DNA of 64,000 bases from Streptosporangium album. Lineage in GTDB: Bacteria > Actinomycetota > Actinomycetes > Streptosporangiales > Streptosporangiaceae. Under the pieces are notes generated by a model. It saw only the letters and a program-made list of their open reading frames with translations, did not search any database and was not told the origin of the DNA. Location of the stretch: NCBI RefSeq assembly GCF_014203795.1, contig NZ_JACHJU010000002.1:558001-622000 (forward strand), read 5' to 3'. The stretch's first letter is position 1; each line of letters begins with the position of its first letter. Both the position numbers and the translations under genes were made by a program. Shown here in pieces: positions 58,970 through 64,000 of the stretch.

Positions 58970-60475
58970 ATGCGGATACGTGACCTGGTCGGGATCGAGG
59001 AGCTCGGGCTCACCCTGCTCGCCGGTGAGGAGCACCTGGACCGCGGCTTCACCGGTGTGCAGATCACCGACCTGCCCGACCCCGGACGCTACCTGTCGGG
59101 CGGGGAGCTGGTGCTGTCCGGGCTCATGTGGCGCAACGGCCCCGAGGACTCCGAACGGTTCGTCGGCCGCCTGGCCGAGGCGGGGGTGGCCGCGCTCGGC
59201 GCCGGCAGCGCCTGGCTCGGCGCGGTGCCCGAGGACCTCGTTCAGGCCTGCCGCGCGCACGGCCTGCCGCTGCTGGCGGTGCCCGTCGAGGTCTCCTTCC
59301 GGACGGTCGCGGAGATGGTCACCCCCCGGCACGCCGAGCTGCGCGACGCCCTCGGCCGCCACCGCAGGATCGTCGCGGCGGTCGCCGAGGGCGCCGGCCT
59401 GCCGGAGCTGTTCGCGCTGATGGACACCGAGCTCGGGATGACCGGCGCGGTCGTCTCGGCCACCGGCGCGGTGATCGCCGGAACCCTCGGCCAGGCCGAC
59501 GCCGTACGGCTGGCGCACGAGTATCTGACCGCGCCCCGGCTGCCGCACGCGGTCCGCGCCCCTTCGGGGACCTTCACGCTCTTCGGCGTGGGCCGCGAGC
59601 ACCGCGCCGCCGGCTGGGCCCTGGTCTGCGGCGGCGACCTGCTCGGCGAGGTCGACCTCGGCTTCGAGCTGGCGGCCTGCGTCGCCCTGGAGCGGACCCG
59701 GATGGAGGAGGGCCGGCGGGTCGAGCGCCGTCTCGCCGAACAGCTGATCGCGCTGGCCTGCTCGGCGGGTGGCGATCCGGCCGAGCTCAGCGCCGGGCTG
59801 CGGACCTGCGGGATCGGCCCGGCCGAACCATACTCCGTGGTCAACGTGACCGTCGCCTGGCCGGGGGCGACCCGGGGACCGGACCCGGCGCGGCTCGGCG
59901 GGCAGGTCCTGGAGGAGCTGCTGCGCCCGCGGGTGGTGGCCGCGGCGGGCGCCGACGGGGCGGTGGCGCTGGTGCCGCTGTCCGGTACGGCGGGCGAGCT
60001 GGCCGCGAGGTTGCGGACCGGTGCGCGGGCGCTGACGGCGGGGCTGCCGGGCATCCGGGTGTCGGTCGGGCTGAGCGCCGCGCTGACCGGCCCGTCCGCG
60101 ATCCGGGGAGGCGCCGAGGAGGCGGGCCACGCGCGACGGCTGGCCGAGGCGCGGGGCGGGGCTGTCGTGACCAGCGACGAGATCTACACGCACGCGCTGC
60201 TGCTGGCCACCGTCCCCGACGATGTACGGCGCTCCTTCGCGGCCAGGATGCTGGACCCGCTGTTCGACTACGACCGGCGGCACGGCTCCGATCTCGTGCG
60301 CACGCTCGGCACGTTCCTCGACTGCGTGGGCTCATGGAACGCCTGCGCCGAGCGCCTGCACGTGCACGTCAACACGGTCCGCTACCGCATCCGCCGGGTG
60401 GAGGAGCTCACCGGCCGGGACCTGTCCACGATGACCGACCGGGTCGACCTGTTCCTGGCCCTCAGGGGATCGTGA
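58970..60475 (+). CDS. PucR-family transcriptional regulator of purine locus
   Basis: A 501-residue regulator with a PucR domain (MRIRDLVGIEELGLTLLAG, LSGGELVLSGLMW), a central GGDEF-like region and the C-terminal helix-turn-helix (LGTFLDCVGSWNACAERLHVHVNTVRYRIRRVEEL). It is divergent from xanthine dehydrogenase and the purine permease with 92 bases between starts, so it almost certainly controls them. It is a distant paralogue of the PucR at 40692. Confidence 0.93.
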   Translation: MRIRDLVGIEELGLTLLAGEEHLDRGFTGVQITDLPDPGRYLSGGELVLSGLMWRNGPEDSERFVGRLAEAGVAALGAGSAWLGAVPEDLVQACRAHGLPLLAVPVEVSFRTVAEMVTPRHAELRDALGRHRRIVAAVAEGAGLPELFALMDTELGMTGAVVSATGAVIAGTLGQADAVRLAHEYLTAPRLPHAVRAPSGTFTLFGVGREHRAAGWALVCGGDLLGEVDLGFELAACVALERTRMEEGRRVERRLAEQLIALACSAGGDPAELSAGLRTCGIGPAEPYSVVNVTVAWPGATRGPDPARLGGQVLEELLRPRVVAAAGADGAVALVPLSGTAGELAARLRTGARALTAGLPGIRVSVGLSAALTGPSAIRGGAEEAGHARRLAEARGGAVVTSDEIYTHALLLATVPDDVRRSFAARMLDPLFDYDRRHGSDLVRTLGTFLDCVGSWNACAERLHVHVNTVRYRIRRVEELTGRDLSTMTDRVDLFLALRGS

Positions 60476-60597
60476 CCCTGTCCGGTGCCGTGAGAGGTCT
60501 GCCGTGCGCGGACAGGAGGGTTTCCCTCTCCTCCGCCAGCGGCTTCTCCAATGTCTGGTCTCCCGTCGCCTCGGCGGTCGCGAAAGCCCGCTCCAGA

Positions 60598-61020
60598 TAG
60601 GCCCAGCATCAGCTGTCCCCAGAGCCGTTCGCGTAATGGATTCGCGTCGGTCGCCGCGCGCAGGCCGGATACGGCCTCCCTGTATCTGCCCAGGCTGAAC
60701 TGGATCTCCGAGAGTTCCTCCAGCACGGCGAGATACTCCTCGGAGAGGCGGGCCGCGGCGTCGTCGAGAGCCGGAGTTCCCCTCTCGTCCAGGAGAGGCT
60801 CACCCCGCCACAGGCCCAGCGCCTGTTCGAAGTGATGGTGCGCGGTGTCCAGATCACCGTTCCAAGAAGCGCGCCTGCCCCGCAGATGACGGTTGGAGAC
60901 GGGAGTGCCGGCTCCCAGGAGGAGCGCCGCCGGAAGCTGACGATGTTTAAGGCGACGGATGGGGACGGTCACGCCGTCGACGTTGCGGATTCCCAGCTTG
61001 CCGAGCACCAGAAAGGTCAC
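60598..61020 (-). pseudogene. Remnant of SARP-family regulator
   Basis: The frame starts VTFLVLGKLGIRNVDG and RLKHRQLPAALLLGAGTPVS, the beginning of a Streptomyces-antibiotic-regulatory-protein DNA-binding domain. It then jumps to the bacterial transcriptional activator domain (LDTAHHHFEQALGLWRGEPL, ERLWGQLMLGL) and breaks off. The winged-helix core, roughly 60-80 residues, and everything after the activation domain are missing. SARPs usually control antibiotic clusters; none is visible here. An IS element lies 165 bases to the right. Confidence 0.7.
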
Positions 61021-61184
61021 GTGGTGAGTCCCAATGCCAGTGCACCCAAGCCGCCTCAAGTGCTTTCCGATAGTCCTTTCAGGCTAATGATGTTCAGTTC
61101 TCGGCTCAAGTCGCCGGAGTCGGTCTTCGCGGGGCTTGTAATGTATTTATAGTGTATTTTCATTCTGCCATATTCAATGAGTCA

Positions 61185-62174
61185 TTGTCAGCAACCGGCG
61201 TTCACGCTGGGTGACAGCTGCTTGTGAGCTTGCTCCCGGTGGAAGAGGACGAGCGCCGCGGCGACGATACCGCCGATCTTCCAAGGGCACTTGCTGACGT
61301 TCCGCAGTGCCTTGAACCGCATCTTGAGCTGGGCGTTCGCTCGTTCGGCGAGGGCTCGGAGCGCACCGTGGACCTTGTTGTACTGGATCTGATCGTCGGT
61401 GAGTGTGCCACCCCGAGACCTCTTGTACGGCAGGCGAAACCCCATACCCGCATCGACGTAGCCGAGGTCGGCCAACGTGATCAGCCCGTCCTCGGCGGCC
61501 TTGGCCAGCGGGTCGAGGAGGCCGTGCAGGCGGGCACAGGTGAGATCGTGTTCACGGCCGGGCCGTACCTCAGAAGTCCACAGCGGGTCGCCGCCGGGGC
61601 TGGACAGGACCTGAATGTTGCCGCCGTGCTGCTTGTGTTTTCCACTCCACCACAGGTCGGCGCCGTTCGGGCCCAGGGCGCGGCAGCGGTCGGTTTCGAT
61701 CAGCGTGCCATCCAGATGCAGGTGGGTGTAGCCGGCGGCCTTCGCCGCCGTGAGCGCCTCCTGTAGCGTCGGCGCCTGGGCCTTCAATACGGTGACCCCT
61801 TCTTCGACGTACCGATCACAGGTCGCGTGCGAGATGGCGTTATCGGCGGCCGGCCGGGCGATCCGAGCGCCGTCCACCAGCCAGCGGATGATCAGAACGG
61901 CCTGCTTGAACTCGCCCAGCGCCCGAGTGCCCGCGCGGGTGCGGCGCCGTACCCGCTCGGCGCGCAACAGCCCGGCCAGAAACAGCACAACCTCGCGCGG
62001 CATGTCCAACTCGGCTGTGTAGGTGATACTGGAGGTCACGTGAAGCCCTTGTGTGCGGTGCGGTGGATCCTTCGACAAGACCCACCCCTACCAGGGGCTT
62101 CACGCTTTTCTCTACTTGATCACTCCCACGCCCGCCGTGATCGGCTACACACGGTCATCGACCGTTGCTGACAA
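61185..62174. mobile_element. IS5-family insertion sequence
   Basis: An element of about 990 bp bounded by 11-bp perfect terminal inverted repeats TTGTCAGCAAC (61185-61195) and its complement (62164-62174). It contains one transposase gene whose stop lies inside the left repeat. No clear target-site duplication was found flanking the repeats, which could mean the ends are slightly misplaced or that flanking DNA has been rearranged. Confidence 0.75.
61188..62039 (-). CDS. IS5-family transposase (DDE_Tnp_4)
   Basis: A ~283-residue transposase, uninterrupted. The catalytic triad is suggested by Asp in HLHLDGTLIETDR, Asp in LITLADLGYVDAG and Glu in ALAERANAQLKMRF. The N-terminal helix-turn-helix (RALGEFKQAVLIIRWLVDG, ISHATCDRYVEEG) binds the ends. 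GTG 62039 with AAGGG upstream is preferred; the frame is open to 62078. It appears functional. Confidence 0.88.
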   Translation of the reverse strand: MTSSITYTAELDMPREVVLFLAGLLRAERVRRRTRAGTRALGEFKQAVLIIRWLVDGARIARPAADNAISHATCDRYVEEGVTVLKAQAPTLQEALTAAKAAGYTHLHLDGTLIETDRCRALGPNGADLWWSGKHKQHGGNIQVLSSPGGDPLWTSEVRPGREHDLTCARLHGLLDPLAKAAEDGLITLADLGYVDAGMGFRLPYKRSRGGTLTDDQIQYNKVHGALRALAERANAQLKMRFKALRNVSKCPWKIGGIVAAALVLFHREQAHKQLSPSVNAGC

Positions 62175-62912
62175 CGTCTCAATGTTCATGTCAGAAGTCG
62201 CCGAGCACCGCGGTGTGGGGGTGTATCCGAGTCCGGCTGCTCGCTTATGCCGGAGAGGGGTCCTGCGTCCGTCTGTCTGGACGGAGACTCCGGGTGCTGG
62301 ACGCCGGCCAGTTGAGACGCTCTGAGCCTGGTGAGGGAGGAGTCGACACGCCCCTCCGAAAACGCGAGGCGGACACGGCGGAGCACTGGCTCATTCTGAA
62401 CGCACGGCGGCGTTCTCTGCGAACGTGACCGAGCCCTCCGCCGAGGTGCGTATGAATTCACCGAGCCGGCGACCCCGTGCCCGCGTGGTCCGGAGGGTGA
62501 TCGACCGAGGGCGTCGGGCGCCTTGCCTTCATGACGTGCCACCAATGGTGGCCAGACTGTTGGCGTGATCGGATCGATCGAATTGCCGCATTTAACTGGT
62601 AAGAACGCTAACCGTGCCGCGCCCTGATCTCGTGGGGAATGGTGAAATGTGATTCTGTGGAGCCATATCGATTCCGTGTCGATCGGCGAGGGGGTGGGGC
62701 ACGACCCCTTCCGCCTGTCATGGATCTGGAAGGTGTGCCGACGCCCCCTAAGACGCTCTACGCGTTTCACGCCAGGCCGACGCCGTGGGGCTCGCGCAGA
62801 GCGTCTGTGTGTTCAGGAGCCGAGTGGCCGGTCTCTATCCTGCTCCGACCGGAGCAGAGAGCCGCGACCCCTCAGATTGACCTCCCACCACATGGAGACA
62901 GAGGGCGCCCGC
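62175..62912. other. Non-coding region right of the IS element
   Basis: About 740 bases without a gene I can support. Several open frames exist on both strands but lack ribosome-binding sites and have arginine-rich shadow-like composition. A 7-bp perfect hairpin CTGCTCC/GGAGCAG (62840-62846, 62851-62857) lies just beyond the stop of the small peptide gene and may terminate it. Confidence 0.5.
62840..62857 (-). terminator. Hairpin downstream of small secreted peptide gene
   Basis: Perfect 7-bp stem with 4-base loop located 56 bases after the peptide stop codon on the minus strand. There is no T run, so termination is only suggested. Confidence 0.35.
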
Positions 62913-63053
62913 TTAGCCGGGCCATTCCCAGGTGCCCGTCATGGTGGCCGCAGGGGCAGACGGATCGGCAGTGAGGGTCGTAGCATTACCGGTGACGGCA
63001 AATGTGGCCGCGATGAGCACGGCGAGGGCGGACAAAGTGAGGCGTTGACGCAT
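62913..63053 (-). CDS. Small secreted peptide, candidate signalling pro-peptide
   Basis: A 46-codon gene on the minus strand. AGGAG lies 8 bases before the ATG (63062-63066). The product begins MRQRLTLSALAVLIAATFAV, a basic start plus hydrophobic core of a Sec signal peptide, continues GNATTLTADPSAPAAT and ends TGTWEWPG. Cleavage would leave a peptide of about 20-25 residues with an aromatic C-terminus. It is divergent from, and 56 bases away from, an XRE-TPR regulator of the type that binds peptides in Firmicutes (PlcR/Rgg class). The pro-peptide role is inference. Confidence 0.6.
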   Translation of the reverse strand: MRQRLTLSALAVLIAATFAVTGNATTLTADPSAPAATMTGTWEWPG

Positions 63054-63109
63054 GGGGGAGACTCCTGTCCTGGGTGCTGCTGCTCAAGCGATATTTTTCA
63101 AGGGGTAAC

Positions 63110-64000
63110 GTGATCGGTCAAGACTTGGTCGGGCAGCGTATCAAGGCTGTCCGCCGTCAGCGCGGGTTTTCCCAAGCGCAGCTCGCTCATCCGGAATTGT
63201 CTGATAGTTACGTCTCCCTCATCGAGAGTGGTAAGCGCACGCCGACGCCCGCGGTCCTGGAACTCCTGGCCGAGAAGCTTGACTGCTCCCTCACCTATCT
63301 CGTCAACGGTGTGACGGCTGAGCAGATGGAGGAGATCGAGATCGGTCTGCGCTACGCTCAGCTCGCCCTGGACAACGGCGAGGTGGCCGAGGCGCGTGCG
63401 CGGTATGCCGAGCTGCTCGACGACAGCGGTCTCGTGGGTCTGCCCCAGGTGAGACAGGACGCGGAGTACGGCCTTGCGATGGCGACTGAGGCCTGCGGCG
63501 ATCTGGACGAGGCCATCACCCTCTTCAACGGGCTGAGGCAGCATGCGTCGGCGGCCATGGCTCCCGAACGCCATGTCAGCGTCGCCGTCGCGCTCACGCG
63601 CTGCTACCGCGAGCGCAGCGAGCTGAGCCGCGCCGTGCAGATCGCGGAGGACATCCTCGGGGGAGCCGTCCGCCCTGTCTGGAGCGAAGGGCTGATCGAG
63701 CTCGGCACGGCTCTGCTGGCCGCCTACGCCCAGCGTGGAGATCTACTCAGGGCGCACCAGTTCGGCGTCGAACTGCTCGCCGCCGCCGAGCTGGTCGGCA
63801 CCCCACGAGCCGCCGTCCTCGCCCTCTGGGCCGAGGCGATCGTCGCCGTCGAAACAGGTCGGCCTGACGACGCCGTTGCGCTCGCGGACAGGGCTCTCGC
63901 CATCTACTCGGAGAACGGCGAACCACGTGGCGTGGCCAAACTCCGTGTCGACCACACGCAGATCCGGCTGATCGCGAGGCCGGCAGAGGCCGCGATATGC
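63110..64000 (+). CDS. XRE-family regulator with TPR domain (3' end outside window)
   Basis: An open frame of 297 codons running off the right edge. The N-terminal helix-turn-helix reads RIKAVRRQRGFSQAQLAHPE, then SDSYVSLIESGKRTPTPAVLELLAEKL (residues ~8-55). From residue ~70 the chain is repeated helical hairpins: LRYAQLALDNGEVAEARARY, LATEACGDLDEAITLF, AYAQRGDLLRAHQFG and AVETGRPDDAVALADRAL, typical tetratricopeptide repeats. GTG 63110 has AAGGGG five bases upstream. Architecture equals RRNPP peptide-responsive regulators. It faces the small secreted peptide gene. Confidence 0.88.
   Translation, partial: MIGQDLVGQRIKAVRRQRGFSQAQLAHPELSDSYVSLIESGKRTPTPAVLELLAEKLDCSLTYLVNGVTAEQMEEIEIGLRYAQLALDNGEVAEARARYAELLDDSGLVGLPQVRQDAEYGLAMATEACGDLDEAITLFNGLRQHASAAMAPERHVSVAVALTRCYRERSELSRAVQIAEDILGGAVRPVWSEGLIELGTALLAAYAQRGDLLRAHQFGVELLAAAELVGTPRAAVLALWAEAIVAVETGRPDDAVALADRALAIYSENGEPRGVAKLRVDHTQIRLIARPAEAAIC

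Follow-up and report, generated by a model that had tools for sequence, protein, structure and literature searches.

TPR receptors that recognize peptide pheromones intracellularly are a known feature of Firmicutes. In the RRNPP systems of that group (PlcR-PapR, NprR-NprX, Rap-Phr, AimR-AimP, Rgg-SHP, ComR-ComS and PrgX), a TPR regulator, mostly equipped with an HTH domain, is accompanied by an adjacent micro-gene for an exported precursor, with the signal at or near its C-terminus. The locus described here shares this arrangement, as well as profile similarity to PlcR and NprR, yet it belongs to Actinomycetes and its precursors carry Cys-Cys or W-x-x-P at the C-terminus. The size range given for RRNPP receptors in PMC10075063 is approximately 250-500 aa, and the regulator analyzed in this work (430 aa), with its TPR repeats and HTH, falls within it; the RRNPP_detector run described in the same source covered complete Firmicutes and virus genomes.

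Actinomycetes produce many antibiotics, and their signalling is thought to proceed mainly via small molecules. In gamma-butyrolactone systems, a self-made signal is read by a cytoplasmic DNA-binding protein, the TetR-type receptor. Gamma-butyrolactones and similar small molecules are presented in PMC4748050 as the means of actinobacterial quorum sensing. By analogy, the pair analyzed here would also join a self-made signal to a DNA-binding protein as its proposed reader, with a gene-encoded exported peptide and a TPR receptor in place of the small molecule and the TetR-type receptor. A search of the full-text literature, judged by title and the start of the abstract and with bioRxiv and most subscription journals outside its scope, returned no such actinobacterial pair among the matches listed.

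The analyzed window is a stretch of 64,000 nucleotides from Streptosporangium album (NCBI RefSeq assembly GCF_014203795.1, contig NZ_JACHJU010000002.1, positions 558,001 to 622,000). The earlier note had described a 46-codon ORF with a ribosome-binding site (RBS) and a signal-like N-terminus, 56 bp from a divergent regulator with HTH and TPR domains, and this description was confirmed in the sequence (Table 1). The deduced product, MRQRLTLSALAVLIAATFAVTGNATTLTADPSAPAATMTGTWEWPG, carries a predicted Sec signal composed of Arg residues, a hydrophobic stretch and a cleavage site between LTA and D, recognized by inspection; export of the peptides in general was judged by eye and with a hydrophobicity filter. 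Both domains of the regulator, HTH_3 and TPR_12, scored above the Pfam cut-offs. The peptide itself gave a single chance-level match to Pfam, far under the cut-off (E 0.17), and none to NCBIfam. Among 25 peptides searched, none matched Pfam at 0.01 and one weak match was obtained to each of two NCBIfam models (including Phr_nterm, E 0.0058), while 10 further peptides gave no NCBIfam match over the cut-off. With script-picked start codons, the spacers of relatives measured 50-69 nt, and neither the aligned sequences nor a column profile revealed anything decisive with regard to an operator in the 56-bp spacer of S. album.

Table 1. Features of the peptide-regulator locus and its surroundings (positions refer to the window unless noted otherwise).
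Feature	Position	Strand	Remarks
Peptide precursor gene	62913..63053	minus	46 codons, ATG start, stop included; kept in 16/16 genus genomes
Predicted Sec-type signal sequence, residues 1-29	62967..63053	minus	MRQRLTLSALAVLIAATFAVTGNATTLTA; cleavage after LTA by inspection
C-terminal motif TWEWPG (W-x-x-P/A-x signature), candidate mature signal	62916..62933	minus	Relatives retain W at -5 and P/A at -2
RBS of peptide gene, AGGAG	63062-63066	minus	From sequence; 8 nt ahead of ATG
Spacer between divergent start codons	63054..63109		56 bp; probable shared control region
RBS of regulator gene, AAGGGG	63100-63105	plus	From sequence
HTH-TPR regulator gene, 5' part	63110..64000	plus	GTG start at 63110; full gene to C2:622402, 430 aa
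HTH_3 DNA-binding domain, regulator residues 11-64	63140..63301	plus	Pfam
Regulator codon 241	63830..63832	plus	Ala here, Asn in Cys-Cys-type receptors; receptor alignment
IS-like element	61163..62196
Terminal inverted repeats of IS-like element	61163-61212 / 62147-62196		Imperfect, 72% complementary
Transposase ORF of IS-like element	61188-62078	minus	DDE_Tnp_4
BTAD-domain ORF adjoining IS-like element	60382-61059	minus	No DNA-binding domain by Pfam at E 1e-4

Downstream of the regulator lies a CopC gene (Pfam), followed by a gene for a membrane protein that we call CopD-like from its position and by inspection. On the other side, the IS-like element separates the peptide gene from the BTAD and PucR genes, and the BTAD ORF next to it may be what is left of a SARP/AfsR-type regulator.

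All 16 genomes of the genus contained an orthologue of the regulator, each with a divergent micro-gene. A peptide profile (A4), which itself includes members of Streptosporangium, gave exactly one strong match per genome, in every case beside the regulator (E 1.9e-20 to 6.6e-16), and no second copies appeared between E 6.6e-16 and 0.003. The N-terminal part of the genus peptides was nearly constant (RRRLALSALAMLFTAAFAVTGNATTASADSSAP), with the signal part conserved in relatives as RRRLALSALAxLF...NATTASA, whereas the linker varied in both length and sequence; their ends (LGWGWPL, YGWGWPG, TSWSYPD, LGWGFPD, LGWNHPD, LGWGHAD and LGWNGPD, among others) followed the pattern W-x-x-P/A-x. The conservation of the frame beside orthologous regulators that the earlier note had proposed to check was found in 16/16 genus genomes and at wider family loci; the expected combination of a kept C-terminus and a varying linker was also present, in the form of W at -5 and P/A at -2, and intact frames were seen at 89/89 extracted loci (83 distinct peptides), all of them loci where a peptide had already been found.

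Two precursors of the genus carried the motif more than once. In G006 (locus L019) there were four WNGPD copies (GGWNGPD SASTLGWNGPD FAGGWNGPD VVSSLGGWNGPD SA), and the precursor of G014 (L017) carried two diverged copies (SLGWTYPE ... SAWTYAE). Several signal copies per precursor are likewise described for the tandem Phr systems Phr3T and Phr105, identical in one of them and diverged in the other (PMC11343458), although the motif here is WNGPD or W-T-Y-P/A and the receptor is an HTH-TPR regulator rather than a Rap protein.

Paralogous regulators presented a different picture. None of 14 from the genus genomes (L021-L034) had such a divergent gene. A highly conserved class of paralogous HTH-TPR regulators of the genus and family (L027-L031, L033, L034, L240, L246 and L255), with the N-terminus MPSQGTIGDRVR where it was read, showed no micropeptide. 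A second regulator class of Streptosporangium, approximately 33% identical to that of S. album, was paired with exported peptides ending in CCYE (L241, L242, L243 and L248); in L245 the frame continues past CCY. Next to the regulator of this class at L241, L242 and L248 stands a paralogue of the S. album receptor (52-54%) that is itself devoid of a divergent peptide.

Within Streptosporangiaceae, the regulator was detected at E <= 1e-75 in 185 of 297 genomes. Fourteen new loci (L035-L048) and 60 further regions, mostly from the top of the match list, were extracted, and a divergent peptide lay beside 88 of 89 regulators (L005-L020 and L035-L104), a proportion that holds for closer relatives because of the way the loci were drawn. 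Among these 88 peptides, 22 ended in W-x-x-P/A (followed by SA in L019), one in GPLNNAE (L040) and 65 in Cys-Cys; the exported Cys-Cys peptides at this place are approximately 42 aa long, as exemplified by MRRRLIVSVLAVLFSTGVVVGANATAASADTSSPKYVMADWCC, read from the shorter of the starts in the L050 frame. Among 394 relatives in named genomes, which are largely of the same species, the best 80 loci were read; 79 of them had the peptide, and the remaining one (L170) is one of the paralogues. Fourteen of the 79, from Streptosporangium, Planobispora and Planomonospora, had the W..P ending; two from Planomonospora had GP..AE; and 63 ended in -CC (Nonomuraea, Microbispora, Herbidospora, Sphaerisporangium, Acrocarpospora and Planotetraspora, among others). 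The location of the pair varied little: the regulator was directly followed by CopC in 78 of the best 80 named loci, and on the opposite side many loci, not all, had genes for PucR and xanthine dehydrogenase (Pfam) within the 6 kb covered.

Tandem regulators occurred in L062 and L067, each with its own peptide; best-matching peptides accompanied the most alike regulators (86.5%), with same-genome copies near (85.6%). The second regulator of L081 had no peptide, and among ten regulators at approximately 42% identity (L105-L108 and L310-L315) nine lacked a CC peptide, L108 being the only one to have it.

In order to place these counts against the background, small ORFs were surveyed. The 80 named loci (1.04 Mb) contained 286 ORFs of 30-110 aa with a strong hydrophobic stretch, of which 61 ended in CC: 60 were situated at the pair and one was the peptide of a second, tandem pair in L137. 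Two further CC-type loci, L136 and L181, are not counted in the 61, since their first start codon yields more than 110 aa. Once the hydrophobicity requirement was dropped, 66 of the 4,763 small ORFs in these loci ended in CC, and the five lacking a hydrophobic stretch lay away from the pair and looked unrelated. Six long loci from outside the family plus the window (151 kb) gave 28 hydrophobic small ORFs, six of them ending in CC and all six beside a regulator; in the window, the peptide ORF was the only hydrophobic small ORF ending in W-x-x-P/A-x. A chance ORF was ruled out by the conservation and by these background counts of CC-ending ORFs.

A class-wide search detected the regulator in at least 49 of 296 genomes (five candidates scored per genome). 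Of the 41 regulator matches outside Streptosporangiaceae, 34 had a small hydrophobic CC peptide next to them. The peptide gene was divergent in 28 cases, located upstream in the same orientation in one (L224) and convergent downstream in five (L203, L226, L230, L232 and L235). The seven without a CC peptide were L202, L221, L229, L231, L233, L234 and L237, with L202 and L221 at contig ends where only 220-290 bases upstream were covered. In family f19, 20 of 20 other regulators had a CC peptide beside them (e.g. MGRAKRVVIAVVASFALMFTVSTPAVAAFAPTASPGDFCC). In L296 and L297, of the same family, the regulator stands between two different CC peptides, one divergent upstream and the other convergent downstream, the latter ending in GGSD[YF]CC. 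The neighbouring genes scanned at five loci outside the family encoded ribonucleotide reductase, an EamA transporter, alanine dehydrogenase, an FAD oxidase, a helicase and a hydrolase, among others, and no copper gene was seen among them. In the wider phylum, at least 8 of 395 other genomes had matches at E <= 1e-60 (four candidates scored per genome), and a CC peptide was present at none of the seven loci with the regulator recovered, L306, at a contig end, being left out. On a Streptomyces goshikiensis plasmid, a 71-aa "hypothetical protein" (WP_008741297.1) ending in IPLCC lies downstream of such a regulator; the other four of five Streptomyces plasmid loci had no CC peptide. The regulator profile matched 16 plasmid records, at least one of which (Nonomuraea gerenzanensis) is chromosome-sized. 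A phage or plasmid origin was also considered and rejected, with only two partial relatives in viral contigs and one in phages by the same profile. These comparisons show the micro-gene and the HTH-TPR regulator gene staying together across many genera and several families of Actinomycetes.

The Cys-Cys ending was present in all 59 distinct CC peptides from Streptosporangiaceae, and the positions preceding it, from -3 to -10, were hypervariable (entropy 3.1-3.8 bits). In 13 Streptosporangium sequences, dN/dS was 0.35 for the signal part and 0.63 for the last six codons, and it ranged from 0.55 to 0.79 for whole peptide genes of four CC genera, in both cases on few codons; judged from these few codons, the peptide genes evolve under constraint but fast. 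In a quick tree, W..P receptors formed one clade among CC-type relatives (SH-aLRT 99), for which a single change of the signal is the simplest account. Also within this clade are the 48-55% paralogues without a divergent peptide, and the 52-54% paralogues of L241 and L242 were placed inside it. The earlier note had described the TWEWPG form, which proved real and conserved but is a variant: the Cys-Cys ending is commoner and probably ancestral, with W..P derived in the Streptosporangium clade.

Comparison of 17 W..P with 64 CC receptors showed an almost unchanged HTH and differences in the TPR part, most of them at positions 107, 237, 241, 247, 319 and 342. Among 184 regulators, Asn 241 (in the motif W-N) was found in 103 of the 106 that have a CC peptide of their own and in 18 of the remaining 78, namely 1 of 21 counted as W..P and 17 of 57 counted as having none. 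For these counts, L067, L071 and L223 were entered as CC, their CC ORF having been seen separately; L241, L242 and L248 were entered as none, given that the CCYE ORF there belongs to the neighbouring regulator; and L019 and L040, whose ends are off pattern, were also counted as none, their regulators lacking Asn 241 (in L040 via its named twin L120). The class of paralogues without peptide, as well as L105-L107, had Glu, Gln or Arg at this position, and the L247 row does not align. Approximately one repeat further on, position 274 was most often Asn in the CC receptors, and none of the 17 W..P receptors had Asn there. On the tree (172 rows, after exclusion of near-identical rows and of L202 and L221 at contig ends), the association of Asn 241 with the CC ending mostly amounted to 2-3 concordant and 0-1 discordant independent changes, and was not significant. 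A conserved Asn that touches the peptide backbone is described for RRNPP receptors in PMC6458997, and the same Asn-peptide contact for Rap in PMC3601965; in the NprR alignment, the column of Asn 241 corresponds to a Glu of NprR, and the S. album receptor has Ala.

The regulator profile matched PlcR (1.1e-9) and NprR (1.1e-9 and 2.7e-9) in the PDB, and RapH weakly (0.0071). Unrelated TPR proteins such as kinesin light chain and LGN matched at similar E-values, which leaves homology to RRNPP receptors unproven.

Both the pairing and the co-variation of peptide and regulator come directly from sequence comparison. The conserved pairing, the export signal and a constant end after hypervariable residues point to a peptide signal read in the cell, and so do the tandem copies of the end, the receptor paralogues with peptides of their own and the TPR differences that match the signal. 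We thus consider it probable that the pair is a peptide-signalling module working like the RRNPP systems of Firmicutes. In such a module, signal peptidase and outside proteases would release the C-terminal 6-10 residues of the precursor, oligopeptide permeases would re-import them, and the peptide would settle into the regulator's TPR groove and change how this protein binds the short control region that both genes share, by which the cell would sense its own or its neighbours' peptide. We infer this processing, import, binding and gene control; the S. album genome encodes 24 SBP_bac_5 oligopeptide-binding proteins, and the peptide and regulator genes, which share the 56 bp, are the first candidate targets. 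In Streptosporangium, Planobispora and Planomonospora, the W-x-x-P/A-x signal would have replaced Cys-Cys, once according to the tree, along with changes in the TPR part. As to the quorum-sensing or self-sensing pair proposed in the earlier note, the conserved frame, the tandem motif copies and the profile matches to PlcR and NprR speak for it, while quorum sensing as such is something we infer.

Other functions for an exported Cys-Cys peptide have to be weighed. Cys-Cys is a plausible Cu(I) ligand, and the location of the pair beside copC in Streptosporangiaceae leaves room for a metal-related role, in which the exported peptide would bind copper and the regulator would control the peptide gene and copC. 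Nevertheless, the Streptosporangium clade stays beside copC with peptides that lack both cysteines, the residues preceding CC are hypervariable, and copper genes were absent from the neighbours scanned in the five loci outside the family, which makes a role in copper handling improbable. The invariance of the adjacent cysteines at the exported end would also suit a thiol or redox sensor, that is, a peptide reporting the extracellular oxidation state, only its reduced (or disulfide) form being imported and read. Such a sensor would amount to a particular version of peptide signalling. We give the sensor a low probability, as the W..P clade retains the pair without peptide cysteines and, among the receptor cysteine columns, 163 and 239 are the only ones at which CC and W..P receptors differ much.

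The peptide might instead be an effector, e.g. a small antimicrobial peptide, with a regulator that merely controls its gene. A short exported peptide encoded divergently to an XRE regulator is compatible with such a role, yet conservation beyond the signal is limited to the last residues, no peptide-modifying enzyme was found among the scanned neighbours (EamA transporter and ABC ATPase genes do occur near the L259 copy), and two CC peptides beside one receptor, as in L296 and L297, fit signals more easily; an effector function is accordingly regarded as very unlikely. With peptide signalling as the preferred reading, we lean somewhat towards the broader proposition that Actinomycetes own a widespread pheromone system with receptors inside the cell, in which exported micropeptides, invariant in their terminal Cys-Cys and hypervariable ahead of it, co-diversify with dedicated XRE-TPR readers encoded next to them, recoded once to W-x-x-P in the Streptosporangium clade, with multi-copy precursors and a changed receptor groove (loss of Asn 241 and Asn 274).

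Through its recurrence, the pair suggests a type of actinobacterial peptide signalling that had escaped notice until now. Synthetic peptides make the signalling reading directly testable, and the switch from Cys-Cys to W-x-x-P offers a natural experiment on the joint change of signal and receptor. If the reading is true, a pair present in several families of Actinomycetes would provide a new handle on development and on silent gene clusters.
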